Origin: a virus
Strand: one strand, 5' to 3'
Length of the DNA stretch: 36,230 nt
Virus record (IMG/VR): IMGVR_UViG_3300011116_000280
Coordinates: 1-36,230 of that record
Below, one piece after another: positions 1 to 36,230 of the stretch. Positions within the stretch are counted from its first letter, which is position 1. Every line of letters begins with the position of its first letter. The translations under genes and the position numbers were made by a program. The notes beneath the pieces were generated by a model. The model ran no database searches. It was not told the DNA's origin and saw nothing but the letters and a program-made list of their open reading frames with translations.

Positions 1-184
1 CTTCCAAGTAAAGGGGTGCAAGGACTTCGGTTACATTATCGATGCGTTCCACCTTTTGAAAAAGCCGGGGAAGCCGCGATGGGTGAAAGCCCTCGACGTA
101 GTTCTCGCCTCTCTGGTCTTCTTCGGGTGGTACGGTGCTCTGGGTTACTTGTTCGTGAAATTCATTCTCTGGTGTCATGGCTAA
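1..184 (+). CDS. Small single-span membrane protein (5'-truncated by the window edge)
   Basis: Partial copy of the 62-residue gene that is complete at 27982-28170; the ATG and part of the second codon lie outside the window. The frame runs from base 2 and stops at TAA 182-184. It differs from the complete copy by four bases, all synonymous, which indicates purifying selection on a real gene. The C-terminal half is strongly hydrophobic and ends in a Trp/Cys/His/Gly tail. Its stop overlaps the start of the tape-measure gene. No family is recognised; it may be a small tail-associated or membrane protein. Confidence 0.7.
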   Translation, partial: FQVKGCKDFGYIIDAFHLLKKPGKPRWVKALDVVLASLVFFGWYGALGYLFVKFILWCHG

Positions 185-1730
185 AAAGAAAGGTGAGGAC
201 GAGGTAGTCGTAAAGATTAAGGCTGACACAACAGCCCTTGACGATGCTTTCGAGGCCGCGGAAAAAGCCGTAGACAACCTAGGCAAAACCGGACAAGAAG
301 CAGTAGGAGCTCTTGACCGAGTGACGGGAGGGTTCGCCTCAAGTTTGGTAAAATCCGTAGCTGGAGCTAGAACCCTTGTTCAGTCAATGGGGCTTCTGAA
401 GGTAGCTCTGATTTCGACCGGTTTAGGAGCTATTGTAGTGGCTGTGGGTTCTTTGGCGGCTTACTTCATGCGTACGGCGGAAGGTGCCGATATGCTAGAG
501 AAAGCGATGAACGGACTTAAAGCCGTTTTCAACGTTGTTCTAGATAGGCTGGCGCAACTGGGAGGAGCGGTAGTTAAGTTCTTCCAAGGAGACTGGGCAG
601 CAGCTGCGGAGCAAGCTTCAGCGGCTATGAAGGGAATCGGCGATGAAATCGAAAGAGAGGTAGCTGTAATAGACAAGCTCACGGAGGCTACTCAAAGACT
701 CGGAGCGGCTCAGCGTTCGATTATCGTGGAGACGGCTAAGCAGCGTGCGGAGATTGAACGGCTGAAGATGGCTTCGGAAGACGTTACGCTGAGCATTGAC
801 GCGAGGATTAAAGCGGCCAAACAAGCGGCGGCGCTAGAGTCCGGATTACTTCGGGAGCGTACTAGGATAGCTCAAGAAGAGTTCAGGATCCGGAAGGAAC
901 AGCTTTCTACGACACACGCGACAAATGAGGAGCTCATGGAGCTTGCTCAGCTTGAGGCAGAGGTGTACAATCTCCGGCAAGAATCTACTTCAGTTCAAAC
1001 GAACCTCCAGAACAAGATTAACGCGCTGCAAGCCGAGCAAGCGGCGGCCGCTCTCGCGGCTCAAATGGCTATACACGACGCGGCACTTGCACAGGCTAAG
1101 ATTCTAAACGAAACGAACGATGCCCTACAAAAGGGATTGAAAGGGGTTGAGCAAATCTCAAACGACACAACCCGGACTATTATTAATAACAGCCAAAGGA
1201 TAAACGATAACGAAAACAACCTATACGCGGACTACACCCAAATTCAGCTCAAGAAACTCCAAGCCGTCGTGAACTTCGCAGAGGCTGGCATTAACCTCGT
1301 GGCAGCTCTCCAAGACGGGCAGGACAAAGACAACGAGAAGCGCGCAAAAAGGAACTTCAAGCTCTCGAAAAGTATCGCGATTGCGAACGCGATTATCAAT
1401 ACCGCAGAAGGCATCACCACGGCCCTCACGGACAAGACCACACCTTCCACTATCATGCGGATCATTCAGACCGCTACGGTAGCTGCGACGGGTGCAGCTC
1501 AAATCGCAACTATCGCCAAGTCTCAATTCGAGAGCCCGGGCCCTCCTCCTCCAGCTCCCGGACAAGGTGGCGGCGGTGGTGGTTCAACCGCGGGCCCTCC
1601 TCAACTCGACCTATCGTTCATGCAAGGTTCTCAAACGTCCGGCTTCCGTTCGTACGTCCTTGCTTCTGACGTGAATAATTCAATGCAGGCAAACCAAAAA
1701 CTCCGGGATCAGGCATCCCTCGTAGGCTAA
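177..1730 (+). CDS. Tape-measure-like tail protein, allele A (517 aa)
   Basis: Likely tail tape measure or tail-length protein. After a charged N-terminus there is a hydrophobic segment at about residues 73-97 (starting LLKVALISTG and ending LAAYF), which in this family follows an LKVAL..TGIGA pattern. It is followed by long Ala/Glu/Gln/Lys-rich helical or coiled-coil stretches (about 150-420). Near residue 460 comes a Pro-run/Gly-run hinge, then a C-terminal tail. At 517 residues it would specify a short tail. The start ATG overlaps the stop of the small membrane gene and the stop touches the protease start (TAATG). The copy at 28163-29704 is a diverged allele, yet the last 20-odd codons are identical. 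Family assignment is from sequence character and context; a minor tail protein is the main alternative. Confidence 0.72.
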   Translation: MAKKKGEDEVVVKIKADTTALDDAFEAAEKAVDNLGKTGQEAVGALDRVTGGFASSLVKSVAGARTLVQSMGLLKVALISTGLGAIVVAVGSLAAYFMRTAEGADMLEKAMNGLKAVFNVVLDRLAQLGGAVVKFFQGDWAAAAEQASAAMKGIGDEIEREVAVIDKLTEATQRLGAAQRSIIVETAKQRAEIERLKMASEDVTLSIDARIKAAKQAAALESGLLRERTRIAQEEFRIRKEQLSTTHATNEELMELAQLEAEVYNLRQESTSVQTNLQNKINALQAEQAAAALAAQMAIHDAALAQAKILNETNDALQKGLKGVEQISNDTTRTIINNSQRINDNENNLYADYTQIQLKKLQAVVNFAEAGINLVAALQDGQDKDNEKRAKRNFKLSKSIAIANAIINTAEGITTALTDKTTPSTIMRIIQTATVAATGAAQIATIAKSQFESPGPPPPAPGQGGGGGGSTAGPPQLDLSFMQGSQTSGFRSYVLASDVNNSMQANQKLRDQASLVG

Positions 1731-2335
1731 TGGAAATCTTTGAACTTGTAATCGACGAGGAAGCCGACACCTACGGCATCCAAGCTATCTCGCTGGTAGA
1801 AGAGCCCGCGATTGAGACGGACTGGGTAGCTCTTTCGGCTCAGTACAACTTCCAGACGGTAGACGCAGACCGCCGCATCCTCCTCGGTCCGGCCCTCATC
1901 CCGGATAAACCTATCTACCGTAAAAGGGGAGACGAGGAGTTCCACATCTTCTTCTCGAAAGAGACGGTAAGGAAAGCGATGGAGCTCTACTTCAAGGCAG
2001 GCAACCAGACACGCGCGACCCTCGAGCACGAAGTCCCTGTAAACGGAACTACGGTAATTGAGTCGTGGATAGTGGAAGGGGAGCAGGACAAGTCGCGTAT
2101 GTATTCCTTGAACGTCCCGGTAGGTACGTGGATGGTCTCGATGAAGGTGGACTCGGAAGCTATCTGGAACGAGTGGGTTAAAGAAGGGAAGGTGAAGGGC
2201 TTCAGTATCGAAGGATTCTTCACCCGGAAGGTGGACCTCTCGGCTATCCCCGAGCTTTCTGCGGAGACCTTCGTAGACGAGCTGGAGGCGATTATTTCGG
2301 AAGCTGTGTCAAAAATCAAAACGCTAAAAGGTTAA
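1730..2335 (+). CDS. Prohead maturation protease, XkdF-like
   Basis: Putative serine protease that processes the prohead, of the family related to PBSX XkdF. Visible signatures are the N-terminal SLVEEPAI motif (residues 21-28), GPALIPDKPIYR (53-64), a segment starting FFSKETV (about 74), ATLEH with His100, and ESWIV with Ser112, followed by GFSIEGFF (157-164). His100 and Ser112 are the candidate catalytic pair by analogy with phage prohead proteases. The 201-residue length suits the family. Its place directly before a scaffold-like gene and the capsid gene supports the role. The start overlaps the stop of the tape-measure gene. An identical copy lies at 29704-30309. Confidence 0.82.
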   Translation: MEIFELVIDEEADTYGIQAISLVEEPAIETDWVALSAQYNFQTVDADRRILLGPALIPDKPIYRKRGDEEFHIFFSKETVRKAMELYFKAGNQTRATLEHEVPVNGTTVIESWIVEGEQDKSRMYSLNVPVGTWMVSMKVDSEAIWNEWVKEGKVKGFSIEGFFTRKVDLSAIPELSAETFVDELEAIISEAVSKIKTLKG

Positions 2336-2353
2336 ACGTAAAACCCCATACTC

Positions 2354-2917
2354 ATGAATATTCAAGAACGAGTGGCGGCCCTGTTTAACAAGTACTCCGC
2401 GATGCTGGCGGAAGAGACTCCGGTCTCTTTGGCTACGGCGGTACTTCAGGGTGGCCAAGAAATCCAGACAGCCGCTGAAGAGTGGGCTATCGGTGTAGAT
2501 GTTTTCGTCGTCAATGACGAAGGCGAGCAAATCCCTCTTCCCGACGGCGAGTACACGCTCGAGGACGGAATCGAGTTTACCGTGGTAGACGGAAAGGTGA
2601 ACACGTGGGAGATGCCGGAAGCTCCGGTCGAAGAAGAAGCCAAGAAGGACGAGGAGAAGATGAGCGAAGATGTTCTGACCCGCGAGGAAGTGGCGCAAAT
2701 GATTCAGGACGCTGTAGAGGCTGCATCTACGACCCTCTCGAAGCAGTTCAAGAGCGAACTCGGAAAGAAAGACGCAGAAATCCAGAAGCTCGCGAAAGCT
2801 GCTACCCCGTCCCTCCCGAAGGCTCCGGCCCGCCGCGAACGTCAAGCCTTGAACCTCACGAACCTCTCCACGGACCAGCGCGTCGCCGCTATCCAGTCAC
2901 ACTTTATGAATCTCTAA
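2354..2917 (+). CDS. Probable capsid scaffolding protein
   Basis: This 187-residue protein sits between the protease and the major capsid gene, the classical place for a scaffold. It is acidic and low in aromatic residues, with a Glu/Lys-rich middle (about 95-115), a predicted amphipathic coiled coil (about 115-160, with heptad-like spacing around VAQMIQDAVEAAS and LGKKDAEIQKL) and a basic C-terminal tail rich in Arg and Asn. Such basic tails often contact the capsid shell. The sequence itself does not name a family, so the call is mainly by position and composition. The start ATG follows an 18-bp gap after the protease stop. An identical copy lies at 30328-30891. Confidence 0.6.
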   Translation: MNIQERVAALFNKYSAMLAEETPVSLATAVLQGGQEIQTAAEEWAIGVDVFVVNDEGEQIPLPDGEYTLEDGIEFTVVDGKVNTWEMPEAPVEEEAKKDEEKMSEDVLTREEVAQMIQDAVEAASTTLSKQFKSELGKKDAEIQKLAKAATPSLPKAPARRERQALNLTNLSTDQRVAAIQSHFMNL

Positions 2918-2927
2918 TTTCTCTGAA

Positions 2928-3872
2928 ATGTCTCAATTCATCAAACTCGCGGACGCTACGATCACGAGCAACTACGTAGGGAAACAAGCCCTGCCGTACG
3001 TCGCGCCCGCTATCCTCGCAGCCGACACGATTGCGAACAACTACGTAACGGTCCTGAACAACGTCCGGGGCCGCGCACAGCTGCGGAAGTTCTCTGGTTC
3101 GGCAATCGCTGCGGCTAGTTGCACCTTCACGACGGGAACGGCTCTGGCTTTGACGGATGTGGCCCTCTCTTTGACGGACCTCCAAATCAACGACCAAATC
3201 TGCAACAAAGACCTGCACATGGCGTGGGAGTCGGAGCAGATGATCGGTGCTGCGGCTACCGCCCCTGCGGATATGAAGGCTGCGGCTGGTCAATACGTCG
3301 CAAAGCGTGCGGCTGAATCTATCGAGTTCAACTTGTGGCAGGGTAACTACAACATCGACGCAGGTGTGGCTACGAGTGCTACTCACACGCTGTTCAACGG
3401 TCTGCTCCGCCAGATGGTTTTAGCTTCTCCGACCTACGAAGCGAACTTGACGGGTGCTCTGACTGCTGCCACCATCCTCAGCAAGCTGGAGGCATTGACT
3501 TCTACGCAGTGCCCGCCCGCAATTAAGGGAGACCCCGAGACGGTCATCTACATGAGCCGCTCCTCTCGCGCTCTGTACTTCTCTGCTCTCGCTGGTACAT
3601 ACAACATCCCTTACCTCGCAGAAGGAACGGCCAGCCAGTACGGAGGATACAAAGTCGTAGCTCCGGCCGGTTTCCCGAATGATACGCTTCTCATCTCGCG
3701 TCCGGATAACTTGTACGTAGGTACGAACCTCCTGACCGACTTGACGGAAGCCCGTGTACTCGACCTCATCGACGTAACCGGTGACGATGTTACCCGCGTT
3801 ATCATGAAGTTCGCGTTCGGTACGCAGGTTGTGGATCACGATTCTTACGGCTTGCTCCGCCGGACCACGTAA
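2928..3872 (+). CDS. Major capsid protein (probable)
   Basis: At 314 residues, and directly after protease and scaffold, this is the best major-capsid candidate. The N-terminus resembles HK97-fold capsid proteins of Bacteroidota phages, which typically start with a short helix and a series of Thr/Ala/Asn-rich segments. Further features are a central E-loop-like region around the LQINDQICNKDLHMAWESEQ stretch and a C-terminal TQVVDHDSYGLLRR end. I do not see a decisive motif. A stable hairpin follows the stop, as expected for a highly expressed gene with its own transcript end. The next gene starts 61 bp downstream. An identical copy lies at 30902-31846. Confidence 0.7.
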   Translation: MSQFIKLADATITSNYVGKQALPYVAPAILAADTIANNYVTVLNNVRGRAQLRKFSGSAIAAASCTFTTGTALALTDVALSLTDLQINDQICNKDLHMAWESEQMIGAAATAPADMKAAAGQYVAKRAAESIEFNLWQGNYNIDAGVATSATHTLFNGLLRQMVLASPTYEANLTGALTAATILSKLEALTSTQCPPAIKGDPETVIYMSRSSRALYFSALAGTYNIPYLAEGTASQYGGYKVVAPAGFPNDTLLISRPDNLYVGTNLLTDLTEARVLDLIDVTGDDVTRVIMKFAFGTQVVDHDSYGLLRRTT

Positions 3873-3886
3873 TAGAAACCCGGATT

Positions 3887-3914
3887 AAGGGGAGGGGCTT
3901 CGGCCCCTTCCTTT
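3887..3914 (+). terminator. Hairpin with UUCG loop after the capsid gene
   Basis: A stem of up to 12 pairs (core AGGGGC/GCCCCT, extended by G-U and A-U pairs) closes a TTCG tetraloop. It lies 15 bp after the capsid stop. The T-tract is short, so it may act as a partial terminator or as an RNA-stabilising 3' end that sets a high capsid-to-tail-tube ratio. Duplicated at 31861-31888. Confidence 0.65.
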
Positions 3915-3933
3915 CGTCCTTAAATTGAAACTC

Positions 3934-4458
3934 ATGGCTTGTTCTATCACAATTTCGGGACGGGGTTTCCCCTGTAAGGACGCTATCGGCGGCGTTCGCA
4001 AATTCTGGACTGCTCCGTTCGACGAGGACGGAAGCAAGTGGGCCGCATCTCCTACCGCTGGTGCTTTGTCGGGGGCTGCGGAAGCAATTACTTTCTACGG
4101 TTTCGAGCTTTCACGCGGGAACGCTTCGTTTACTCAAACTATCAACGCCTCGATGGAGAACGGCTCCGTCTTTTACGAGCAGGTTCTCGAGGTGACTATC
4201 CCGAAGATGGAAGCGGGAGTGAACGCTGAGCTTGCGGACCTCATGAAGCTGCGTCTCTTTATCATCGTGGAAACGATGAACGGAGAGAAGCTCCTGATGG
4301 GTTACAAGAACGGCGCGGAAGGAACCGGCGGAACGATTGTTACCGGTGCTGCTATGGGAGACCTCCACGGCTACACACTTACTTTCACCGCACGCGAGAA
4401 GGTTCCTTCGCCGGTTATTACGGCTACCACGAACCTCACGTACACGCAGGAGACTTAA
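3934..4458 (+). CDS. Tail-tube-like structural protein
   Basis: A 174-residue beta-rich protein beginning MACSITISGRGFPCKDAIGG. This resembles a family of Bacteroidota phage tail proteins with an N-terminal 'C.I...G...C.D..GG' pattern, a central 'QTI..S..NGSVFYEQ.L' strand pair and a C-terminal 'GG.IVTG.A.GDL.GYTLTF.A.E' segment. These features suit a tail tube or major tail protein. I chose ATG 3934 over the in-frame TTG at 3925 because the family-like sequence begins there. It is flanked on both sides by hairpins, consistent with separate control of an abundant virion protein. An identical copy lies at 31908-32432. Confidence 0.5.
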   Translation: MACSITISGRGFPCKDAIGGVRKFWTAPFDEDGSKWAASPTAGALSGAAEAITFYGFELSRGNASFTQTINASMENGSVFYEQVLEVTIPKMEAGVNAELADLMKLRLFIIVETMNGEKLLMGYKNGAEGTGGTIVTGAAMGDLHGYTLTFTAREKVPSPVITATTNLTYTQET

Positions 4459-4483
4459 GGGTTGGTTATCTTGGTTAGGAACG

Positions 4484-4512
4484 GGCCTCGCGTACTGCGG
4501 GGCCTTTTCTTT
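4484..4512 (+). terminator. Rho-independent terminator
   Basis: An 8-bp stem (GGCCTCGC with GCGGGGCC, one U-G pair), a 5-nt loop and a T-rich tail (TTTTCTTT) lie between the tail-tube-like gene and the first glycosyltransferase. This is the best-formed terminator in the structural region. It would reduce read-through into the glycosyltransferases. Duplicated at 32458-32486. Confidence 0.75.
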
Positions 4513-4517
4513 GCAGT

Positions 4518-5171
4518 ATGATTTACGCAGGTATGGCGATGCTCCCGGATAGGTTCCCGGGCTCGCTCCTTTCGGTCCAGAGCATCCTCCCGCAGGTGGA
4601 TCGTCTATTCCTTTGTTTGAACGGCTTCGACTCTATTCCCGAAGAGCTGGTACACGAGAAGATTGAGGTATGGCACTACGGGAAGAACCTCGGAGATCGG
4701 GGCAAGTTCTTCTGGCCCTTCGGAAACTACCGGGCTTTCCTCACGCTGGATGACGACCTCATCTACCCGCCTACCTACGTCGCAGATTTCGTGGCTACAT
4801 CCGAGCTATTTCGAGACGTGATTCTCACCCACCACGGGAAGATTGTTCCCGACCGGGTACGCGATTACTGGACCGACTGCAAGAACGTGGTTCACTGCCT
4901 ACGCAGGAACGAGGAAAACGTACGGGTAGATATCCCGGGCACAGGAGTAGCTTACTACCCCGAGGGGATATACAAGCAATTCGGAAAGAATAACGACTGG
5001 AACCGCGCCGACTTGTACGTTTACGGGCAGATGAAACGCCTCGACGTACGCGCCTACGCACTCCGGCATCCCGCGGACTACTTCGGGTATATCGCTCCTC
5101 CGCAGGGAACGACGATTTGGGAGCAGACACAGAGTGCAGATATGACCGCTATATTCCACTCCTACGCATGA
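4518..5171 (+). CDS. Glycosyltransferase, GT-A fold (family 2-like)
   Basis: A 217-residue protein with GT-A traits: an N-terminal beta-strand/helix start (MIYAGMAMLPDR, then SLLSVQSILPQVDRLFLCLN), a nucleotide-binding region with NLGDRGKF near residue 60, and the metal-binding acidic motif TLDDDLIYPP (about 75-85), the DxD equivalent. The sugar donor and acceptor cannot be read from the sequence. It overlaps the next glycosyltransferase by 4 bp (ATGA), so the two are translationally coupled. Their place between virion genes suggests modification of capsid or tail proteins, although modification of host surface or DNA is possible. An identical copy lies at 32492-33145. Confidence 0.72.
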   Translation: MIYAGMAMLPDRFPGSLLSVQSILPQVDRLFLCLNGFDSIPEELVHEKIEVWHYGKNLGDRGKFFWPFGNYRAFLTLDDDLIYPPTYVADFVATSELFRDVILTHHGKIVPDRVRDYWTDCKNVVHCLRRNEENVRVDIPGTGVAYYPEGIYKQFGKNNDWNRADLYVYGQMKRLDVRAYALRHPADYFGYIAPPQGTTIWEQTQSADMTAIFHSYA

Positions 5172-5854
5172 AGATAGCTCTACACATCCCGGTATGGCAG
5201 CGGCTCGAGCTCACGCGAGCCTGCTACGAAGGTCTCCGACGCATCCAGAAAGAATTCGCCGAAGGTGGCGCGGAGCTCATTCCCTATATCGCGGTTTCTG
5301 AGGACGAACACGAAGGACTCGCGCAAGAATACGGGTGGAATTACAAGTGGTTCGCGAACGAGCGTCTGGGGACGAAGAATAACGAGCTTCTGGACTGGAT
5401 GCGGGGGGCGGACTGGGACTTCATGCTTCAACTCGGTTCCGACGACTTTATTCTCCCGGGAGGTGGGACGCATATCCTCGAGCTCATGGCAGAACACGAG
5501 TTCGCAGGATCCAGAAACATCTATATGTTCCGCGCGGACACGCGAGAAGGAACCCTGTTTCGGGGTTACGCTTCGGGGGCCGGCCGCTTTATGAGCCGGA
5601 GGATAGTGGACAAGGTGCCTGTGATGTGGACGGACCGGCACGTAGGGCTAGACGGGTGTTCTCGGATGCACGTATGGGAGAAGACGAAGGTGGAACCTTT
5701 CTGGAGCCAGACCCCAACCGTCGCAGATGTAAAGAGTTCGGTCAATGTTAGCGCGTTTGCGCGTTATAAGTACAGCCCGGAGAACTACGACCTCGACGAG
5801 ATAGTTCCCGAAGCACACCTAATTCCTCGAGATGCTGTACTTAAACTCGAATAG
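5168..5854 (+). CDS. Second glycosyltransferase-like protein (GT-A/GT2-like)
   Basis: A 228-residue protein whose N-terminus (MKIALHIPVWQRLELTRACY) resembles family-2 glycosyltransferases that begin with a beta-strand and a PV.NR-type loop. A strand plus acidic motif (MLQLGSDDFILPGG, near residue 88) is the likely metal/nucleotide-sugar site. The C-terminal half contains a VDKVPVMW segment and an Asp/Cys-containing DGCSRMHVWEK acceptor-side stretch. I chose ATG 5168, which overlaps the upstream stop (ATGA), over more upstream in-frame starts. It probably works with the upstream transferase on a shared target. An identical copy lies at 33142-33828. Confidence 0.62.
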   Translation: MKIALHIPVWQRLELTRACYEGLRRIQKEFAEGGAELIPYIAVSEDEHEGLAQEYGWNYKWFANERLGTKNNELLDWMRGADWDFMLQLGSDDFILPGGGTHILELMAEHEFAGSRNIYMFRADTREGTLFRGYASGAGRFMSRRIVDKVPVMWTDRHVGLDGCSRMHVWEKTKVEPFWSQTPTVADVKSSVNVSAFARYKYSPENYDLDEIVPEAHLIPRDAVLKLE

Positions 5855-6230
5855 CGGTACCCAAAGTATCTACTTGACGCTTCAGGACGCGGCGAGGGAT
5901 TACACGTACACGCATTACCTGTTTAAGCTCGTCCACAGGATGAGCCAAGAGGACTTCTATTTCGTGGGGTACGTGATGAGCGACAACCCGCGGTACACCA
6001 AAATCGACGTAGCTACGAACGCCACCACGACGAACAACGTCCTCCTGACTGAATCGGGGGATTATGACTACTTCGTCTACGTCCAGAACTCCAGCACGAA
6101 CAAAGACCCTCTAAACGCTGCGGTGGTAGCTATGGTAGAACAGGGTACTTTGCGGGTTCCCGGCGCGGGAATTGTTTCCCTGCCTACTATCTCCCTTGAC
6201 GATAACGTGATTTTCTATGGCAACGAGTAA
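5832..6230 (+). CDS. Small beta-rich structural protein (unknown role)
   Basis: A 132-residue protein with alternating hydrophobic strands, no membrane span and a Thr/Asn/Ser-rich composition. It opens with MLYLNSNSGTQSIYLTL. Similar small proteins with an N-terminal 'L.LN.G..N.IY.T' pattern are encoded beside structural genes in Bacteroidota phages, where the function is undefined. It overlaps the upstream glycosyltransferase by 23 bp and the portal gene by 14 bp, so it belongs to the same transcript. A neck, head-decoration or tail protein is plausible, and it could be the protein modified by the neighbouring transferases. An identical copy lies at 33806-34204. Confidence 0.55.
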   Translation: MLYLNSNSGTQSIYLTLQDAARDYTYTHYLFKLVHRMSQEDFYFVGYVMSDNPRYTKIDVATNATTTNNVLLTESGDYDYFVYVQNSSTNKDPLNAAVVAMVEQGTLRVPGAGIVSLPTISLDDNVIFYGNE

Positions 6231-8229
6231 AAGAATAACAGCCCCTCGAAATCCGGGACGGGTAGAGTCCGTGAACCTCGCGAGCTACGTACCCAAATCC
6301 TACCGAGAGGGCACTCAAGGGGACTGGGTAAACTATGGGGACGACAATCTCTACCCGCAGTATCTGGTAGACCTCTACCACGCAAGCCCGACCCACAACG
6401 CGCTGTGCACGACTATTGCGATGATGATTTTCGGGGAAGGTTTCGAGCCCGCAGACCTCAACGCGAAGCTGCTCGCAGCACAGTGGGACCTCGACTCCGA
6501 ACTGCGGAAGTGCGCTATCGACCTCAAGATTCAGAACGGCTTCGCTCTGGAAGTGAACTGGAGCCTCGACCGGACCACAATCGCGAATATCTCTCACCTT
6601 CCTTTCGAGAACGTACGTTCGGGATTCTGCGACGAGAACGAGGTGGTGGACTGGTACTATTACTCGCGGGACTGGCTGGACAAGCGGGTGGAGCCGACTC
6701 CTATCGCGCGGTTCAACCCCGACACGAAGAACGAGTACCCGACGCAGATTCTGTACATGAAGCCGTTTTCGGTAGGTTCATACTACTACCCGAAGCCGGA
6801 CTATATCGGGGCTATCAATTACATCGAGCTCGAGAAGGAGATTTCGGTCTTCCACATCAACAACATCAAGAACGGCCTCTCTCCTTCGTTTGCTATCCAC
6901 TTCAAGAACGGCATTCCTTCCGACGAAGAGCGCCGCATGATTCGTAGGGATATCGAAAACCAAGCAGCCGGAGCGCAGAACGCGGGGAAGTTCTGGATGA
7001 CCTTCTCGGATGAACCCGACCGGGCCCCCACGATTGAGCCTTTCTCCCTTTCGGACGCAGACAAGCAGTACCAGTTCCTTTCAGAGGAGACCACCGCGAA
7101 GATTATGATCGGCCACCGGGTGACGAACCCGCAGATGTTCGGCGTGATGGTGGCGGGGAAGTTGGGAGGAGGAACCGAAATGGAGGCTTCTGCGGAGCTT
7201 TTCGACCAGCAAGTGGTACAACCGTTCCGAATGATTCTCGAAGATGCGGTAGAGACCCTTCTAAACGCTTCTGGAGCTACACCGACCCTGCTCGAAGAGG
7301 TCGAAGCAAAGAAGCTCAACCTTCGTTCTTATTCTGATTACCCGGATTCGGTAGCGAATAACGCAAAGAAGGGAATCGAGCTGAACGAAAAGAACGGCAA
7401 CCGATGCGCCACGCAGACCGGGAAGGTCCGGGCTCAGCAACTCGCGAATAAAGAGCCTATCTCGGAGGAGACGGTACAGCGGATGTACTCGTACCTCTCA
7501 CGGGCCAGCGAGTACTACAACCCTTCGGACACGGAAGCGTGCGGAACTATCTCCTACCTTCTGTGGGGAGGTCCTGCGGCTTTGATTTGGAGCCGCTCGA
7601 AACTCAAGGAAATCGGCAAGCTCAACCTCTCGGAAAACGTCAACCTCGACGGAGCTCTGGAGTACCTCGAGACCTGCGGGGAGGAGATGGGGGAAGACTG
7701 GATTCTCATTGACGAGCGCGAAGTGGACTACGACCGCGAAGAAGCGCACGACGCGCTGTGGAGCTTCGCTCGTGCTTTAAGGAATAACCCTTCGGCCAAA
7801 TCCTCGCAGGACAATGATATCGTGCGTGTACGGTACGCGTACGCTCCTACGACCCTCTCAGATTCGAAGAGCCGGGACTTTTGCCGTCGAATGATAGACG
7901 CGATGAAGGTCTACCGGAAGGAAGATATCGTGCAAGCCGGAAAACAAGAAGTAAATCCCGGATGGGGACCCGGAGGAGATAAGACGTACGATATCTGGCT
8001 CTACAAAGGAGGTGGTTCTTGCCGTCACTTCTGGATGCGCCAAACGTACCTGAAGAAAGACAACGGGCTGATCTCGGTAAACGAAGCCCAGAGGATTATC
8101 CGGTCTCTCCCTCCCGAAGAAAGGAAGGACAATAAGCTCGAAGAAAACGACCGCAAGGTGGCTCAACGTCCACGTGATATGAAGAACCGCGGGTTCCTGA
8201 AGCCTCGCAAATTCACAACCCCGAGATAA
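6217..8229 (+). CDS. Portal protein with C-terminal extension domains (670 aa)
   Basis: Portal dodecamer subunit through which DNA is packaged. Residues 1 to about 370 show portal-like character: YGDDNLYPQYLVDLY near the start, an N-terminal alpha/beta stem, and the GHRVTNPQMFGV and FDQQVVQPFRMILE helices near 300-345. At 670 residues it is longer than usual. Two extra blocks follow: about 372-467 (starts YSDYPDSVANNAKKGIELN, contains GKVRAQQLANKEPIS) and about 490-615 (ends with NPGWGPGG..TYDIWLYKGGGSC and HFWMRQTYL). I know these blocks from head-morphogenesis proteins of Bacteroidota phages, often beside XkdF-like proteases. The start overlaps the upstream gene; the stop overlaps the connector (TAATG). 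An identical copy lies at 34191-36203. Confidence 0.75.
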   Translation: MATSKRITAPRNPGRVESVNLASYVPKSYREGTQGDWVNYGDDNLYPQYLVDLYHASPTHNALCTTIAMMIFGEGFEPADLNAKLLAAQWDLDSELRKCAIDLKIQNGFALEVNWSLDRTTIANISHLPFENVRSGFCDENEVVDWYYYSRDWLDKRVEPTPIARFNPDTKNEYPTQILYMKPFSVGSYYYPKPDYIGAINYIELEKEISVFHINNIKNGLSPSFAIHFKNGIPSDEERRMIRRDIENQAAGAQNAGKFWMTFSDEPDRAPTIEPFSLSDADKQYQFLSEETTAKIMIGHRVTNPQMFGVMVAGKLGGGTEMEASAELFDQQVVQPFRMILEDAVETLLNASGATPTLLEEVEAKKLNLRSYSDYPDSVANNAKKGIELNEKNGNRCATQTGKVRAQQLANKEPISEETVQRMYSYLSRASEYYNPSDTEACGTISYLLWGGPAALIWSRSKLKEIGKLNLSENVNLDGALEYLETCGEEMGEDWILIDEREVDYDREEAHDALWSFARALRNNPSAKSSQDNDIVRVRYAYAPTTLSDSKSRDFCRRMIDAMKVYRKEDIVQAGKQEVNPGWGPGGDKTYDIWLYKGGGSCRHFWMRQTYLKKDNGLISVNEAQRIIRSLPPEERKDNKLEENDRKVAQRPRDMKNRGFLKPRKFTTPR

Positions 8230-8789
8230 TGGCAGAAGTACTATTCGTGAACCCGAACTACCTCAAGCGGGTGACACAACTCAACGGAGCGGTAGACGAG
8301 AACTACATCTCGCAGGCTGTGATTTTGGCGCAAGACAAGAACATCCAGATCTATCTCGGCTCCGACCTGTACGACGCTCTGCGCACGAAGATTTCCGGCG
8401 GAACCCTCGCAGGGAATTACCTCACGCTGGTAGAGAGCTACGTCCGCAAGGCTACCGCGTGGTGGACTATGGTGGAGTTGATGCCTACCCTCTACGTCAA
8501 AATCGATAACGGAGGTTTGGTGATTCGCTCTTCTGAAAATACGACGGCTATCTCTCAAACGGACTACCACCGGGAGCTCGAGCGGGTTCGCCAGAACGCG
8601 AATTTCTACACGAACCAGATGTACCGGTACTTGTGTCAGAATACAAGTCTCTTTCCCGAGTACACGACGAACCTCTATAACCGGATCTGCGCTCAGCCGT
8701 TCCGCTATTACCAGAGCGGGCTTTCTATCTCGGGGTCGTGGGACCGTCCTACGCTGACTCCGGAGTACGCGTACGCGATTAACCGATGA
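8229..8789 (+). CDS. Head-tail connector / head completion protein (DUF6712-like)
   Basis: A 186-residue, mostly helical protein. The N-terminus has the pattern of head-completion adaptors of Bacteroidota phages (residues 20-55: VDENYISQAVILAQDKNIQIY followed by LGSDLYDALRTKI), with a central Trp/Met-rich helix and a Tyr-rich C-terminal part. These adaptors sit on the portal and bridge to the tail. The gene immediately follows the portal (TAATG overlap), which fits. The ORF ends at TGA 8787-8789. The first 28 bases recur at 36203-36230, where the window ends. Confidence 0.68.
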   Translation: MAEVLFVNPNYLKRVTQLNGAVDENYISQAVILAQDKNIQIYLGSDLYDALRTKISGGTLAGNYLTLVESYVRKATAWWTMVELMPTLYVKIDNGGLVIRSSENTTAISQTDYHRELERVRQNANFYTNQMYRYLCQNTSLFPEYTTNLYNRICAQPFRYYQSGLSISGSWDRPTLTPEYAYAINR

Positions 8790-11762: not shown

Positions 11763-11950
11763 TATTTCATTTCGGGACCTTGACCAGAGCCGCGGCCTAC
11801 TTTGGAGTTACTGAAGCGTGTATCCATCACTGGGGCCGAAAGAACCCGGTCCCTTTCCTGAAACATATTCGGGAATTTCATCGATATTCGGGACTCTCTT
11901 ACGGCGAGATAGCAGAACTCGTAACCCGTACCGAGCAACAAATCGAATGA
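11729..11950 (+). CDS. Small helix-turn-helix DNA-binding protein
   Basis: A 73-residue protein with a clear HTH: LTRAAAYFGVTEACIHHWGR (residues about 18-37), where A-A-x-x-F-G-V-T is helix 2, the turn and helix 3. The rest (FLKHIREFHRYSG, then YGEIAELV) would be helical packing around it. This is typical of Cro/CI-size or excisionase-like regulators. It lies directly before the replication initiator (ATGA overlap at 11947), so it may be a regulator of the early or replication operon. No repressor/operator pair could be delimited. Confidence 0.6.
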   Translation: MRNHTELQRVLIFHFGTLTRAAAYFGVTEACIHHWGRKNPVPFLKHIREFHRYSGLSYGEIAELVTRTEQQIE

Positions 11951-12699
11951 ACCACGGTCTCTGGATACCTGAGCGCATTTTGTCGCTCCCTCTCTCTTGG
12001 CACGAACGTATCTTCTTGTCGGTGGTGCTTTCGTACACCGATACAGGTAAGGAATGCTTCGCTTCGGCTGAATTTCTGGCGGAGCGTTGCTACTGTTCTG
12101 AGGTGCAAATACGGAAGACTATCAAGAAGCTTTTGGAGCTTGGATACATCAAGCGAGAGGGCTACGCGTCCAGTCGGAAGTTGTTCATTTCGGAACTTGT
12201 TCCAAATGGAACTTGTTCCATATCGAACACCAGAAGTTCCAAACAGAACTTTCAGAAGTTCCAAATGGAACAACTAGATGTTCCAAATGGAACACATACT
12301 ATAAAGACTACTAAAAAGAGTACTAAAAAGCTTACTAGTAAAGACACGCGTGCGCGTGGTATGGTGGAGGAGGTTGTTCTTCCTTTCGATTCTTTGGAAT
12401 TTTGCGAGGCGTGGGACCGCTGGAAAGAGTACCGGGCGAAAGAGTTCGGGTTCAAGTACAAGTCCCACGTCTCTCAACAGACGGCTTTACATTCACTACA
12501 GAAACTCTCAAACAACAATGAGCGAACAGCAATCGGGATTATCGGCCAGAGCATCGCAGCCGGGTGGCGCGGTCTCTTTCCCCTCAAAGGCAACGGAGGC
12601 GTTAACCTTACGCGAGAGGGATTCGCAAGGCATTTTGAAGGTCGGGGAGCCGGAGGTAATCCACCGGCATGGACTGAGCGTTTCACGGGCGAAATCTGA
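11947..12699 (+). CDS. Replication initiator / replisome-organiser-like protein with internal iterons
   Basis: A 250-residue protein. Residues about 20-90 form a winged-helix (FLSVVLSYTDTGKECFASAE, then a VQIRKTIKKLLELGYIKRE recognition region). A low-complexity linker (about 90-140) is encoded by the iteron array. The C-terminal part (AWDRWKEYRAKEFGFKYK, then AIGIIGQSIAAGWRGLFPLK) resembles the C-terminal domain of phage replication initiators that recruit host helicase. I prefer ATG 11947, which overlaps the HTH stop (ATGA), to the upstream in-frame start at 11818, which would sit inside the HTH gene. The 3' end overlaps the next gene by 182 bp. Confidence 0.68.
   Translation: MNHGLWIPERILSLPLSWHERIFLSVVLSYTDTGKECFASAEFLAERCYCSEVQIRKTIKKLLELGYIKREGYASSRKLFISELVPNGTCSISNTRSSKQNFQKFQMEQLDVPNGTHTIKTTKKSTKKLTSKDTRARGMVEEVVLPFDSLEFCEAWDRWKEYRAKEFGFKYKSHVSQQTALHSLQKLSNNNERTAIGIIGQSIAAGWRGLFPLKGNGGVNLTREGFARHFEGRGAGGNPPAWTERFTGEI
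12199..12293. repeat. Array of five 14-bp palindromic iterons (candidate replication origin)
   Basis: Three exact copies of the dyad GTTCCAAATGGAAC (12199, 12258, 12280) and two variants: GTTCCATATCGAAC (12215) and GTTCCAAACAGAAC (12236). Starts are spaced 16, 21, 22 and 22 bp, so four of the five lie on about the same face of the helix. The repeats fall in different reading frames of the host gene, so selection acts on the DNA, not the protein. A run of five initiator-binding sites inside the initiator gene resembles the lambda O arrangement. Confidence 0.75.
12294..12345. other. AT-rich segment beside the iterons (possible DNA-unwinding element)
   Basis: Directly right of the iterons lies an AT-rich tract with the repeat ACTAAAAAG at 12310 and 12322 (12-bp step) and the related ACTAGTAAAG, in a genome that is otherwise rather GC-rich. 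A GC-rich near-palindrome (ACGCGTGCGCGT) follows. The layout iterons, then AT-rich repeats, is that of an origin with its unwinding element. Confidence 0.5.
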
Positions 12700-13165
12700 A
12701 GACCTCACCTACCTCCGGGCCCTCCTCGGGCGCGAGCTGGTCCAGCTCATGCGGGCGGTGAAGGTCAACAACACCTTCTCGAACGAGGAGGATATCTATA
12801 CAGCCGTCGACGATATCATCGAGGAGTTCAAAACTCTCAAGGTCGAGGAGGTGGTTCACGTCTTCGCCCAAATACGGCGCGGGAAAATCGAGATCTACGG
12901 GCGGCTGGATACCCCGACTATCTGTAAAGCTCTCCGAGACTACGACGTGAACGTGGCGTGCGAGTTCCGGGAGAAGCATTACAAGGAAGCTATCCAAGAG
13001 GAAGCCCTCTCATCACGGTCTTTTCAGGAGATTATCGACTCACTCCCGGAGGTTCGGCCTACATTCGCCGAAATCCTTTCACGCCGGCCGAAATTGAGCC
13101 CGCAGGAACGGGAAGAAATCAAAGCCAGAGACCGAGAAAGATGGCAACAAAGCGGGCAGCCCTAA
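12518..13165 (+). CDS. Replication-associated protein (DUF6633-like), unknown role
   Basis: A 215-residue protein. After a Ser/Gln-rich N-terminus comes a helical domain from about residue 60 (LTYLRALLGRELVQLMRAVK, then IYTAVDDIIEEFKTLKVEEV, then FAQIRRGKIEIYGRLDTPTI). This pattern I know from proteins placed after replication genes in Bacteroidota phages; the function is undefined. The C-terminal part is Arg/Glu-rich. ATG 12518 gives a 182-bp overlap with the initiator; a later start would trim the overlap but I see no better ATG, so the N-terminus is uncertain. It overlaps the NinG gene by 25 bp. Confidence 0.6.
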   Translation: MSEQQSGLSARASQPGGAVSFPSKATEALTLRERDSQGILKVGEPEVIHRHGLSVSRAKSEDLTYLRALLGRELVQLMRAVKVNNTFSNEEDIYTAVDDIIEEFKTLKVEEVVHVFAQIRRGKIEIYGRLDTPTICKALRDYDVNVACEFREKHYKEAIQEEALSSRSFQEIIDSLPEVRPTFAEILSRRPKLSPQEREEIKARDRERWQQSGQP

Positions 13166-13539
13166 TCGCAAAACTGGATAAGGTATTTTCTCAGTACGTA
13201 CGTCTGCGGGTGTGCGACGAGTACGGCTTCGCGGACTGCTTTACCTGCGGAACCCGGAGGCACTGGAAGGAAGTAGACGCGGGACACTTCATAACGCGAG
13301 CCAAATTCGCTACACGGTGGGATCCGGTGAACGTCCAGTTCCAGTGCAAGCGGTGTAACATGAACGGAGGGCAGCAATACGAGTTCTCCAAAAAGCTAAA
13401 TAGCACCTACGGAGAAGGGACCGCAGAGGAGATTTTTATCAAGTCTCAAAAGAGGGCCGGTTATAGCAACGAAGACCTACAGGGAATGATAGCCCTGTAC
13501 TCGAAAGAACTCCGTGAACTCGAAGGCTTCGTGGGATGA
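13141..13539 (+). CDS. ninG: NinG/Rap-family recombination nuclease
   Basis: A 132-residue zinc-binding nuclease of the NinG/Rap family, which acts on Holliday-junction or branched DNA in lambda-like phages. Signature: Cys33-x2-Cys36 (CFTC), GHFI with His49, and QCKRCN with Cys69 and Cys72 followed by Asn73, with NVQFQ ahead of it; the GHFI-15 to 20-NVQ.QC..CN pattern is diagnostic. The C-terminal helices carry YEFSKKLN and YSKELRELE. I use ATG 13141; the longer upstream in-frame reading lies inside the preceding gene. It overlaps the sigma-like gene by 26 bp. It would process recombination or replication intermediates, useful in making concatemers. Confidence 0.8.
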   Translation: MATKRAALIAKLDKVFSQYVRLRVCDEYGFADCFTCGTRRHWKEVDAGHFITRAKFATRWDPVNVQFQCKRCNMNGGQQYEFSKKLNSTYGEGTAEEIFIKSQKRAGYSNEDLQGMIALYSKELRELEGFVG

Positions 13540-14011
13540 ATTCGTCTCAAAGGAATACCGTTACCTGCTGAAAATCGCGGGAAGGTTCACGGCGGACAAG
13601 CACGACCTCGTGAACCACGTCTACCTCCGGGTGATAGACAAGCCTTTCCCCGAGAAGCCTATGGGGTACTTCTGTACCGCGATGTACATGGAAGCGACGA
13701 GAGGGAAGTTCAAGAGCCTCTACACGATTCAAGAGACCCCGGTAGGGAAGGAGCCGATATTCGAGCAAGGGTTCGAGCGAAGTCTCAAGCTCGAGCAGAT
13801 AGAGCTCTTCATCGACCGGCTCCCGTGGTTCGACAAGATGGTGATTCGGCTGTACCTCGACGGCCACAAGCTCTCGGAAGTAGCGCGGGAGGCAGAAATC
13901 AACCCGGCTACCCTTTATCAATCTTTGCACAGAACCAAGAAAATCCTCGCGAATGCTGTTCGTATCGCAAAACACAAGGGCCGCCCGTCTGGAGATATGC
14001 AAGGGCTGTGA
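13514..14011 (+). CDS. Sigma-factor-like protein (ECF/sigma-70 type)
   Basis: A 165-residue protein with the layout of a small sigma factor. Region 2-like sequence occupies residues about 20-65 (DLVNHVYLRVIDKPFPEKPM, GYFCTAMYMEATRGKFKSLY). A linker then leads to region 4 with an HTH at about 115-145 (VIRLYLDGHKLSEVAREAEI, then TLYQSLHRTKKIL). GTG 13514 gives the best start. If functional it would direct host RNA polymerase to phage promoters. The two promoters seen here are of primary host type, so this protein would serve other, probably late, promoters that I cannot define. It could also be a regulator that only resembles a sigma factor. Confidence 0.65.
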   Translation: MNSKASWDEFVSKEYRYLLKIAGRFTADKHDLVNHVYLRVIDKPFPEKPMGYFCTAMYMEATRGKFKSLYTIQETPVGKEPIFEQGFERSLKLEQIELFIDRLPWFDKMVIRLYLDGHKLSEVAREAEINPATLYQSLHRTKKILANAVRIAKHKGRPSGDMQGL

Positions 14012-16298: not shown

Positions 16299-16429
16299 GC
16301 GGCTTTATAGACACATGGAGCGTCTTCGACTTCACCGGATGGTACCTTTTTGTTTCACTCTTTTTCTTCGTCCTACGAGATGAGCTATACCAAAGCAGAA
16401 CGCGCGGAAATCGCGAAGAACATTCGTGA
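16295..16429 (+). CDS. Small membrane protein
   Basis: A 44-residue protein with one hydrophobic span (WYLFVSLFFFVLR, about residues 16-28) followed by a polar, Arg-rich tail. It starts at the ATGA overlap with DUF3310 and overlaps the next gene by 50 bp. It is too short to classify; superinfection exclusion or membrane signalling are possible roles for such early membrane proteins, without evidence here. Confidence 0.45.
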   Translation: MSGFIDTWSVFDFTGWYLFVSLFFFVLRDELYQSRTRGNREEHS

Positions 16430-16607
16430 TTACGCCAAAGAGCGACGTATCGAATACTGGAAGAACTACAACCTCAAAGACGACGAGGACACACGCTGCT
16501 TCACCAGATACGCCACGAACTACGATTACCTTTGGCTGCAAGCCGTCGCAGACGACGTACTCGGTAAAATCAGGCACGATGAATTCCACTGGATTGACAA
16601 GGGTTAA
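16380..16607 (+). CDS. Small early protein, unknown function
   Basis: A 75-residue charged helical protein (MSYTKAERAEIAKNIRDYAK, then RYATNYDYLWLQAVADDVLG). ATG 16380 is preferred over an upstream non-ATG start at 16350, which lies inside the small membrane gene. It overlaps the start of the methyltransferase by 29 bp. No domain is recognised. Confidence 0.5.
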   Translation: MSYTKAERAEIAKNIRDYAKERRIEYWKNYNLKDDEDTRCFTRYATNYDYLWLQAVADDVLGKIRHDEFHWIDKG

Positions 16608-17676
16608 GCTCTCCCAACTCAAGAGCAACCCAAACAACCCGCGAATAATCAAAGACGACAAGTTCCGGAAGCTGGTCCAGTCGATTCAGGACTTCCCGGA
16701 GATGCTCGAAGCCCGTCCGATTGTCTGTGATCCCGATGGGGTAGTTCTTGGGGGGAATATGAGGCTCAAAGCGTGCCGGGAAGCAGGGCTCAAGGAAGTA
16801 CCGGCCTACGTGGTGACGTGGGAGGAAGCCAAACAGCGGGAGTTTATTATCAAGGATAACGTAGGATACGGAGAATGGGACTGGGACGAACTTGCGAATA
16901 CGTGGGACCCTCTCGAACTGGACCGCTGGGGGCTCGATGTATGGCAGGAACCGAAAGAGGAAGAGGGGTTAACGAATCCAGACGAAGTTCCGCAAATTCC
17001 GGAGGAACCAAAGACACAACCCGGAGACCTTTACCTGCTCGGGGACCACCGTCTGCTGTGCGGGGACTCCACGAAAGCGGAGGACGTGGACAAGCTAATG
17101 AATGGGCAAAAGGCCGACACCCTTATAACAGACCCTCCTTTCGGCTTAGGTATAGATGGTCAAAAAGAAAGTAAAAACAAAAACCCAAAACATAACCGAA
17201 AGGCCCACGAATTTAGGGGATGGGATAATGAAAGACCCTCAGAGGGAACGTTTGAGTTAATAAGGAGCTACGCAGAAAATGCCATTATATGGGGCGGTAA
17301 TTATTTTGCAGACCTTTTGCCTGCAACCCGTGGATGGCTTGTTTGGGATAAAGGGCAAAAAGGCTTAACCATGAGCGATGGCGAGCTGGCTTGGAGCACG
17401 TCGGAAAAACCGCTGCGAATCTTTGTGGCGAATCGCGGCGAACTACAGGGAAGCGTACACCCTACGCAAAAGCCAGTTTCGCTTATTGAGTGGTGCGTTC
17501 AAATGAATGAAGGCAGCGTATTAGACCCCTTCCTCGGTTCAGGTACAACCCTAATAGCCGCAGAAAAAACCGGGCGCAAGTGTTACGGCATGGAACTGGA
17601 CCCGAAATACTGCGACGTAATCGTTAAAAGGTGGGAGGACTTCACAGGTAAAAAGGCAGAGCTAGTACGGGCATGA
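16579..17676 (+). CDS. ParB-like domain fused to a DNA methyltransferase
   Basis: A 365-residue two-domain protein. The N-terminus (about 5-80) is ParB/sulfiredoxin-like (KLSQLKSNPNNPR, then VVLGGNMRLKACREAGLKEV). Residues about 145-360 are an amino-methyltransferase: DPPF at 185-188 (catalytic motif IV), HPTQKP at 294-299, DPFLGSGTT at 316-324 (SAM-binding motif I) and GMELDPKYCD at 337-346. Motif IV before motif I indicates a beta-class N6-adenine or N4-cytosine enzyme. The segment from about 17140 to 17560 is AT-richer with different codon use than the N-terminal half, suggesting an imported catalytic/recognition part. The stop overlaps the small-terminase start. It likely protects phage DNA from restriction. 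Confidence 0.88.
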   Translation: MNSTGLTRVKLSQLKSNPNNPRIIKDDKFRKLVQSIQDFPEMLEARPIVCDPDGVVLGGNMRLKACREAGLKEVPAYVVTWEEAKQREFIIKDNVGYGEWDWDELANTWDPLELDRWGLDVWQEPKEEEGLTNPDEVPQIPEEPKTQPGDLYLLGDHRLLCGDSTKAEDVDKLMNGQKADTLITDPPFGLGIDGQKESKNKNPKHNRKAHEFRGWDNERPSEGTFELIRSYAENAIIWGGNYFADLLPATRGWLVWDKGQKGLTMSDGELAWSTSEKPLRIFVANRGELQGSVHPTQKPVSLIEWCVQMNEGSVLDPFLGSGTTLIAAEKTGRKCYGMELDPKYCDVIVKRWEDFTGKKAELVRA

Positions 17677-18005
17677 GTTTTACGGAATTGACACCTAAAA
17701 AGACCATGCTAGACGCTCTCGAGCGTTCACTCGGCATCGTGTCTACAGCTTGCGAGAAAGCAGGTATCAGCCGACAGACCCACTACAACTGGCTGAAGGA
17801 TGATCCCGAATACAAGGAAGCCGTGAGAGCTATCGAAGAGCGGACTATCGACTTCGCAGAATCGCACCTGCACGCACTCATCAAAGACAAGAACCCCGCC
17901 GCGACTATCTTCTTCCTCAAGACCAAAGGGAAGAACCGCGGATACGTAGAACGCCAAGAAATCGAAGTCAGCGAACCCAAACCTCTTTCGTGGTTTAAGG
18001 AATGA
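17673..18005 (+). CDS. Terminase small subunit (phBC6A51-like HTH)
   Basis: A 110-residue protein of the small-terminase HTH family: an N-terminal HTH (LERSLGIVSTACEKAGISRQ, then THYNWLKDDPEYKEAV), a central oligomerisation helix region and FFLKTKGKNRGYVER near the C-terminus, with the tail SWFKE. It recognises phage DNA for packaging. It overlaps the methyltransferase stop (ATGA) and the Mom-like start (ATGA), so the three genes form one transcript. The large subunit follows after the inserted Mom-like gene. Confidence 0.8.
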   Translation: MSFTELTPKKTMLDALERSLGIVSTACEKAGISRQTHYNWLKDDPEYKEAVRAIEERTIDFAESHLHALIKDKNPAATIFFLKTKGKNRGYVERQEIEVSEPKPLSWFKE

Positions 18006-18616
18006 GTGGAGCAGTCAAAGATATGTTTGGAGGAGTGATCGGCTGGAGGCATGGCAAGAAGCCGATAAGCATCCTTCGTGCTAAACAGAGCGATGTTGAG
18101 CCTATCATTAGAGCAAATCATTACAGCGGCAAGGCTTGCCAGAATTCATTTTGCTCGCTCTTAGTCTACCACGATGAGAAAGGAGTCACAGGAGCTGTGC
18201 AGATAGGTTATGGCATCCGACCAAAGAAGAAGCCAGAAGGACTTGTGGAGTTTGATAGGATGTGGCTTTCAGACGAACTGCCCAAGTTCAGTGAGACAAT
18301 TGTCCTCTCAATGGTAAACAAGTTCCTGTACCACGCCTATCCGCACATACATACACTTCGTAGCTACGCGGATACGAGTGTCGGCAATGACGGAACTATC
18401 TATCGCGCTGGGAACTATATAGAAACTAAACGTATTCGTGCTGACTTCTATATCATGCCAAGCGGAGAGCGGGTGCATCCCGTCACGATGTGGCACAGAT
18501 ATCGAACTCGATCGAAAGCATTTCTTGATGCCAACTTTCCGGGCTGGAAAAAAGCCGATGGCGAACAGATCTGTTTCGAGTATTATCTTCGCAAAGCAGA
18601 TACGCCATGCATGTAA
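18002..18616 (+). CDS. Mom-like DNA-modification protein (GNAT fold)
   Basis: A 204-residue protein resembling phage Mu Mom, which modifies adenine to N6-carbamoylmethyl-adenine and shields DNA from many restriction enzymes. Visible features: the beta-rich GNAT-like start (PISILRAKQSDVEPII), 'GAVQIGYGI', 'EFDRMWLSDELPKFSETIVL', 'LRSYADTSVGNDGTIYRAGN' and 'FYIMPSGERVHPVTMWHRY'. It is AT-richer than its neighbours, with different codon use, so it looks like an insertion between the terminase genes. Its 5' end overlaps the small terminase. By position it would modify DNA before packaging. The catalytic activity itself is inferred from family resemblance. Confidence 0.75.
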   Translation: MSGAVKDMFGGVIGWRHGKKPISILRAKQSDVEPIIRANHYSGKACQNSFCSLLVYHDEKGVTGAVQIGYGIRPKKKPEGLVEFDRMWLSDELPKFSETIVLSMVNKFLYHAYPHIHTLRSYADTSVGNDGTIYRAGNYIETKRIRADFYIMPSGERVHPVTMWHRYRTRSKAFLDANFPGWKKADGEQICFEYYLRKADTPCM

Positions 18617-27985: not shown

Positions 27986-28170
27986 ACTTCCAAGTAAAGG
28001 GGTGCAAGGACTTCGGTTACATTATCGATGCGTTCCATCTTTTGAAAAAGCCGGGGAAGCCGCGATGGGTGAAAGCCCTCGACGTGGTTCTCGCCTCTCT
28101 GGTTTTCTTCGGGTGGTACGGCGCTCTGGGTTACTTGTTCGTGAAATTCATTCTCTGGTGTCATGGCTAA
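27982..28170 (+). CDS. Small single-span membrane protein (complete)
   Basis: The complete 62-residue gene (MNFQVKGCKDFGYIIDAFHL) with a C-terminal hydrophobic segment (LDVVLASLVFFGWYGALGYL, about 33-52, extended by FVKFILW). It starts at the ATGA overlap with the hub protein and its stop overlaps the tape-measure start. All four differences from the left, partial copy are synonymous. Its place before the tape measure suggests a tail-related role, perhaps in membrane passage of DNA, but no family is recognised. Confidence 0.7.
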   Translation: MNFQVKGCKDFGYIIDAFHLLKKPGKPRWVKALDVVLASLVFFGWYGALGYLFVKFILWCHG

Positions 28171-29704: not shown

Positions 29705-30309
29705 TGGAAATCTTTGAACTTGTAATCGACGAGGAAGCCGACACCTACGGCATCCAAGCTATCTCGCTGGTAGAAGAGCCCGCGATTGAGACGGACTGGG
29801 TAGCTCTTTCGGCTCAGTACAACTTCCAGACGGTAGACGCAGACCGCCGCATCCTCCTCGGTCCGGCCCTCATCCCGGATAAACCTATCTACCGTAAAAG
29901 GGGAGACGAGGAGTTCCACATCTTCTTCTCGAAAGAGACGGTAAGGAAAGCGATGGAGCTCTACTTCAAGGCAGGCAACCAGACACGCGCGACCCTCGAG
30001 CACGAAGTCCCTGTAAACGGAACTACGGTAATTGAGTCGTGGATAGTGGAAGGGGAGCAGGACAAGTCGCGTATGTATTCCTTGAACGTCCCGGTAGGTA
30101 CGTGGATGGTCTCGATGAAGGTGGACTCGGAAGCTATCTGGAACGAGTGGGTTAAAGAAGGGAAGGTGAAGGGCTTCAGTATCGAAGGATTCTTCACCCG
30201 GAAGGTGGACCTCTCGGCTATCCCCGAGCTTTCTGCGGAGACCTTCGTAGACGAGCTGGAGGCGATTATTTCGGAAGCTGTGTCAAAAATCAAAACGCTA
30301 AAAGGTTAA
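29704..30309 (+). CDS. Prohead maturation protease, XkdF-like (second copy)
   Basis: Identical to the gene at 1730-2335, with the SLVEEPAI motif, His100 in ATLEH and Ser112 in ESWIV. It follows tape-measure allele B rather than A, so the protease sequence is unchanged while the adjoining tape measure differs. That contrast marks the recombination edge at the end of the tape-measure gene. Confidence 0.82.
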   Translation: MEIFELVIDEEADTYGIQAISLVEEPAIETDWVALSAQYNFQTVDADRRILLGPALIPDKPIYRKRGDEEFHIFFSKETVRKAMELYFKAGNQTRATLEHEVPVNGTTVIESWIVEGEQDKSRMYSLNVPVGTWMVSMKVDSEAIWNEWVKEGKVKGFSIEGFFTRKVDLSAIPELSAETFVDELEAIISEAVSKIKTLKG

Positions 30310-30327
30310 ACGTAAAACCCCATACTC

Positions 30328-30891: not shown

Positions 30892-30901
30892 TTTCTCTGA
30901 A

Positions 30902-31846: not shown

Positions 31847-31860
31847 TAGAAACCCGGATT

Positions 31861-31888
31861 AAGGGGAGGGGCTTCGGCCCCTTCCTTT
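31861..31888 (+). terminator. Hairpin with UUCG loop after the capsid gene (second copy)
   Basis: Same up to 12-pair stem and TTCG loop as at 3887-3914. Confidence 0.65.
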
Positions 31889-31907
31889 CGTCCTTAAATT
31901 GAAACTC

Positions 31908-32432: not shown

Positions 32433-32457
32433 GGGTTGGTTATCTTGGTTAGGAACG

Positions 32458-32486
32458 GGCCTCGCGTACTGCGGGGCCTTTTCTTT
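32458..32486 (+). terminator. Rho-independent terminator (second copy)
   Basis: Same 8-bp stem with T-rich tail as at 4484-4512. Confidence 0.75.
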
Positions 32487-32491
32487 GCAGT

Positions 32492-36203: not shown

Positions 36204-36230
36204 TGGCAGAAGTACTATTCGTGAACCCGA
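36203..36230 (+). CDS. Head-tail connector, 3'-truncated by the window end (second copy)
   Basis: First nine codons (MAEVLFVNP) of the gene complete at 8229-8789; the window ends here. Confidence 0.7.

Follow-up and report, generated by a model that had tools for sequence, protein, structure and literature searches.

Replication origins that lie inside the genes of their own initiators are established in lambda, Stx phages, SPP1 and RepA_N plasmids. The O genes of lambda and Stx phages carry four or six iterons, with six in Stx phages (PMC7466680). SPP1 oriL lies within gene 38, where direct repeats and an AT-rich unwinding element occupy the gene of the origin-binding protein, and this phage encodes its own loader and helicase (PMC6316719). 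The plasmid pSK41 follows a related plan, in which the winged-helix N-terminal domain of Rep binds boxes located centrally in its own gene and the origin-encoded linker can be dispensed with; pPR9 Rep is an HTH_36 (pfam13730) chimera whose differences from pSK41 are confined to the N-terminal domain and the origin (PMC5703833).

Here we describe a locus of this kind in a 36,230-nucleotide stretch of viral DNA (called the window). Sequence comparisons make it highly probable that the region is a theta-replication origin located within its own initiator gene, where protein dimers would bind a set of dyads, the resulting array would melt adjoining AT-rich repeats and a helicase would be loaded.

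The initiator gene and its dyads

The features of the locus are as follows.
11947–12699, + strand: initiator gene, 250 amino acids (Pfam HTH_36, PHROG 678 O-like, AlphaFold model)
Domains of its protein (AlphaFold model): winged helix, approximately residues 9–81; disordered linker, 87–140; C-terminal helical domain, 150–205
12091–12141, + strand: residues 49–65, start and body of the recognition helix (modelled helix 52–65)
12183–12196, + strand: dyad 1, GTTCATTTCGGAAC
12199–12212, + strand: dyad 2, GTTCCAAATGGAAC
12215–12228, + strand: dyad 3, GTTCCATATCGAAC
12236–12249, + strand: dyad 4, GTTCCAAACAGAAC
12258–12271, + strand: dyad 5, GTTCCAAATGGAAC
12280–12293, + strand: dyad 6, GTTCCAAATGGAAC
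12294–12341, + strand: 12-bp direct repeats of the TACTAWARA type forming an AT-rich tract, a probable DNA unwinding element (GC minimum, lag-12 periodicity)

A sequence-only reading had assigned the gene to a winged-helix replication protein, and two profile matches agree with this assignment: Pfam HTH_36 (E 5e-10) and the PHROG 678 profile ‘replication initiation O-like’, which covers residues 25–244 (E 4e-16). Neither Phage_rep_O, the N-terminal domain of lambda O, nor RepA_N is among the Pfam matches to the protein at E values up to 1. The AlphaFold model has low confidence outside the winged helix and the C-terminal domain, the latter comprising three confident helices. The protein resembles the initiator entries 4pql, 4pta, 4pt7 and 5kbj, presumed here to be RepA_N proteins, only to the extent that winged helices resemble one another. 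No structure of lambda O came up among the structure-search matches, which says nothing either way.

Within the gene, six GTTC-N6-GAAC dyads span positions 12183–12293, in the coding sequence for the last part of the wing and for the linker. Each is 14 bp long, with two 5-bp half-sites (GTTCC/GGAAC) flanking 4 bp, and start-to-start spacings are 16, 16, 21, 22 and 22. The sequence-only reading had listed five dyads, three of them exact; those at 12199, 12215, 12236, 12258 and 12280 stand, but the count does not, as a sixth at 12183 had been overlooked. Searched within one mismatch, the whole 36-kb record yields only the three exact dyads, all at the initiator locus. The six occupy reading-frame positions 2, 0, 1, 1, 2 and 0, so that all three frames are used and a repeated peptide offers no explanation for them.

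The array also exceeds what chance or coding produces. With up to three mismatches allowed, 10 dyad matches are observed, compared with a mean of 2.4 and a maximum of 7 in whole-window shuffles, and no 250-bp stretch elsewhere in the window approaches the count at the initiator locus. When the same protein was recoded by synonymous codon resampling according to phage codon usage, six sites arose in none of 20,000 trials (maximum 4). Permuting the codons of the initiator gene itself likewise gave six sites in 0 of 20,000 trials (maximum 5).

The AT-rich tract

The predicted AT-rich tract with 12-bp direct repeats is borne out by both composition and periodicity. It directly adjoins the dyad array and contains the lowest-GC 46 bp of the whole window (12296–12341, 24% GC), and 27 of 36 positions match at a 12-bp lag, compared with 12.3 in shuffles. 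Immediately after the tract, 15 bp of alternating purines and pyrimidines (ACACGCGTGCGCGTG, 12344–12358) are identical in the group of relatives typified by L007; this alternation could favour left-handed DNA or could simply be coding.

The 12-mer tract alone was tried and rejected as an origin marker. A blind scan of viral contigs returned many Lys/Thr-coding repeats in unrelated genes, and thus the tract by itself is not diagnostic. A large share of the matches were marine O-like initiators, but the periodicity of their tracts is not independent evidence because the search pattern was built from the window’s own family. Some of these marine genes (L065, L066, L067, L072, L078, L082, L090 and similar) carry possible dyads, such as GGGTC-N4-GACCC, before NTKEDTKDNTKD-coding repeats.

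Site layout and half-sites in related phages

Five close relatives with a complete gene (L007–L011) share roughly 81% protein identity with the window initiator and carry six sites at the same offsets, although GTTCC/GGAAC has become GTTCA/TGAAC in nearly every copy (for example, window GTTCCAAATGGAAC versus the L007-type GTTCAAATCTGAAC). Along with this half-site change, the linker peptide is altered, and the recognition helix begins with DTSEVQ instead of the window’s YCSEVQ, a replacement of YC by DT. Initiator residues 49, 50 and 53 vary between phages that have different dyads. Linker dN/dS is about 0.8, indicating relaxed amino-acid constraint.

These comparisons uphold two earlier expectations: that the dyads, lying in different frames, are conserved as DNA, and that related phages preserve spacing while codons change. 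The outcome is the opposite of repeats being lost while the linker protein is kept, as it is the position and symmetry of the repeats that persist and the linker peptide that differs.

More distant clades extend the pattern. In a second clade (L028, L032, L034), five GTTCC sites are clear and keep the register of the window. In a third (L019, L033, L036), at 26–36% protein identity, GTTCC sites follow a 16, 16, 21, 22 layout, though the left half is partly degenerate at sites 4 and 5, and position alone identifies site 6; the C-terminal domains of this clade vary while the N-terminal half and the sites stay. A fourth clade (L059, L105–L124) carries GCAAC-N4-GTTGC sites, spaced 16, 16, 21, 21–22 and 21–22 in L105–L123, and at one or both of the clade’s first two sites a half of the GTTCC type is combined with GCAAC, giving hybrids (GCAAC-N4-GGAAC, present in L105–L113). 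Thus, the layout is conserved even where the sites are not, as distant clades keep the spacing with either GTTCC or GCAAC half-sites. A fifth group (L046–L048) has an initiator almost identical to that of L032, with its sites rewritten as 22-bp direct repeats. Shared ancestry means that these relatives do not offer independent tests when conserved features are counted, and few half-site types were seen.

At about position 3235, the contig of one relative (L013) jumps from the initiator gene into portal-gene sequence in the opposite direction, which is probably a chimeric assembly.

Divergence of the winged helix

Comparison of the window with L007, whose sites differ, reveals excess divergence in the winged helix relative to the flanking genes. 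Synonymous divergence is 0.52 in the winged helix and 0.31 in the flanks (p=0.003), and nonsynonymous divergence is 0.127 and 0.036, respectively (p=2.8e-6). These values count codons without the overlapping-gene region, and the window–L007 pair is the only one to reach significance. Pairs with the same sites (L007–L008, L007–L011 and L032–L028) exhibit no amino-acid change in the winged helix, L046 and L047 differ there by a few residues, and same-site pairs have winged-helix synonymous divergence no higher than that of the flanks. For L032 and L046, between which the repeat has been rewritten, there are only four nonsynonymous winged-helix changes, and the excess divergence follows the same trend without being significant. 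On the simplest reading of these sequences, the winged helix was exchanged together with its sites as one block.

Gene neighbourhood, host and record

Two genes follow the initiator.
12518–13162, + strand: gene that overlaps the initiator and is placed as lambda P is, a candidate partner for helicase loading (conserved beside the initiator in the clades checked; 98% identical to L007)
13138–13539, + strand: NinG/Rap-like endonuclease gene (gene order as in the lambda O-P-nin region)

The first overlaps the 3′ end of the initiator gene, as lambda P overlaps the end of O, and its homologues directly follow the initiator in the clades checked. With iterons and then an AT-rich tract in an O-like gene, an overlapping downstream gene and NinG, the locus fits the lambda-O-like logic that had been proposed for it, by analogy, as an initiator carrying its own origin. 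The model of the 12518–13162 protein has no convincing fold match in the PDB, so a helicase-loader role suggested by gene position stays a guess; a search of phage records with this protein also gave no match. Among the window genes scanned, none was recognised as a replicative helicase or polymerase. A small sigma-factor-like protein is encoded after NinG (13514–14011), with similar proteins at the same place in L007, L032 and apparently L019. Elsewhere, a Mom-like DNA modification protein (18002–18616) is encoded near a fusion of a ParB domain and a DNA methyltransferase (16426–17676).

Many Flavobacterium phages, at roughly 41% identity, are among the best terminase matches listed. Cellular genomes yielded no relatives in a search with whole initiators and a single match in a search with the C-terminal domain, in Lutibacter litoralis. 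Together, the terminase and C-terminal-domain matches make a Bacteroidota host likely.

The ends of the record (1–8256 and 27974–36230) repeat each other. The copies are 100% identical after about position 1680 and, before it, only approximately 63–76% identical in most 500-bp bins, across a tape-measure gene. The genome itself probably measures about 28 kb and is either circular or terminally redundant; the assembler would have joined it to a strain variant at one end.

Proposed function and alternative explanations

We infer origin activity for the dyad and AT-rich locus. In the mechanism we propose, dimers of the winged-helix N-terminal domain would bind each 14-bp dyad, and six bound dimers on sites 16 or 21–22 bp apart would form a compact nucleoprotein array. 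This array would strain the DNA and melt the neighbouring 12-bp AT repeats, whereupon the C-terminal domain, perhaps with the 12518–13162 product, would bring in the host helicase. Binding of the dyads by the initiator receives indirect support from the co-inheritance of winged helix and sites, while melting and helicase loading are modelled on lambda, SPP1 and pSK41. GC skew gives no origin signal in the window, where it is uninformative since almost every gene has the same orientation.

Recognition of dyads by a winged-helix dimer is a typical trait of repressors, and many MarR, MntR and LexA chains appear among the structure-search matches. The sites might therefore be operators only, through which the protein damps its own transcription while replication starts elsewhere. 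We consider this improbable, as the six sites lie deep within the coding region with the window’s AT-rich minimum immediately after them, the initiator matches an O-like family, and a similar anatomy adjoins a helicase gene in Pseudomonas phage HU1. Winged-helix centromere binders (AspA and TubR) are likewise among the Foldseek matches, and the ParB-like domain fused to a methyltransferase could hint at partition. However, a centromere in place of an origin would not account for the AT-rich element or the O-like C-terminal domain, replication and nin genes lie alongside, and no ParA or TubZ was noticed among the window genes examined; we give this explanation very little credence.

Equally hard to credit is a reading in which the dyads act as RNA hairpins, or simply follow from a repeated (VPNGT-like) peptide, rather than being protein-binding DNA. 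The strand does fold better than its shuffles (z −5.8), and 5-bp stems with 4-nt loops could form in the mRNA. Yet the arms are near-identical across copies and change together between phages, neither of which pairing alone requires, and the hybrid sites of the fourth clade break pairing. The use of three frames argues against a peptide origin, and synonymous recoding does not produce the dyads. By comparison, the anatomy, the excess over chance, the conservation as DNA and the co-inheritance are what an origin read by its own product should look like.

Beyond the origin assignment, we tentatively suggest, with rather less than even confidence, that the locus is a layout-locked, re-keyable cassette. 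Six-site spacing would be kept over large protein divergence, while the half-site (GTTCC, GTTCA or GCAAC) would be rewritten in step with a few residues where the recognition helix begins. The route would be hybrid sites and block exchange of the winged helix with its sites, and each related phage would end up with replication private to itself. Six sites in a fixed layout, with interchangeable half-sites and with hybrids among them, did not appear in the limited open-licence literature searched, although this absence is weak evidence.

How a protein and six of its own binding sites, locked into one gene and three frames, can shift specificity together is poorly understood. The closely related natural pairs described here differ in half-site and a few helix residues at a fixed layout, making the initiator–iteron code directly testable, and viruses that swap all their landing sites along with the DNA-reading part offer a useful natural experiment. 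The anatomy of initiator-borne dyads and an AT tract also provides a sequence rule for locating origins in uncultured phages.

Comparison with known systems

Several named isolates carry comparable repeats. Oceanospirillum phage GJ44 has three 23-bp repeats in a homologous gene. In related winged-helix genes, HU1 has three repeats 22–23 bp apart, with a helicase gene next, and Lysinibacillus phage vB_LspM-01 has repeats 21–22 bp apart followed directly by three 12-bp repeats. The HU1 and LspM-01 proteins can be aligned only over their N-terminal ~70 residues, at 28–30% identity to a protein of the GCAAC clade; their iteron sequences differ from those of the window, and the repeats are not annotated as origins. 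The gene for Leptospira LE1 Orf5, a similar winged helix, holds no comparable repeats, and a search of plasmids gave no match.

The plasmid replicons pSK41 and pPR9 differ from the window in kind, and the RepA_N domain was not detected in the window protein, but pPR9 Rep shares HTH_36 (pfam13730) with it. SPP1 oriL resembles the window in placing repeats and an AT-rich element inside the gene of the origin-binding protein; it differs in host group and repeat sequence, and no second origin was found in the window. The lambda origin is likewise a set of imperfect-dyad iterons followed by an AT-rich tract in the middle of an initiator gene that the next gene overlaps. Lambda has four iterons 20–24 bp apart, whereas the window has six at 16, 16, 21, 22 and 22 bp, built as 14-bp dyads with 5-bp arms and accompanied by HTH_36 rather than Phage_rep_O, a different C-terminal domain and a different partner gene. 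Sharing the logic of lambda O, SPP1 gp38 and pSK41 Rep, the window locus joins an established kind of initiator-borne origin.
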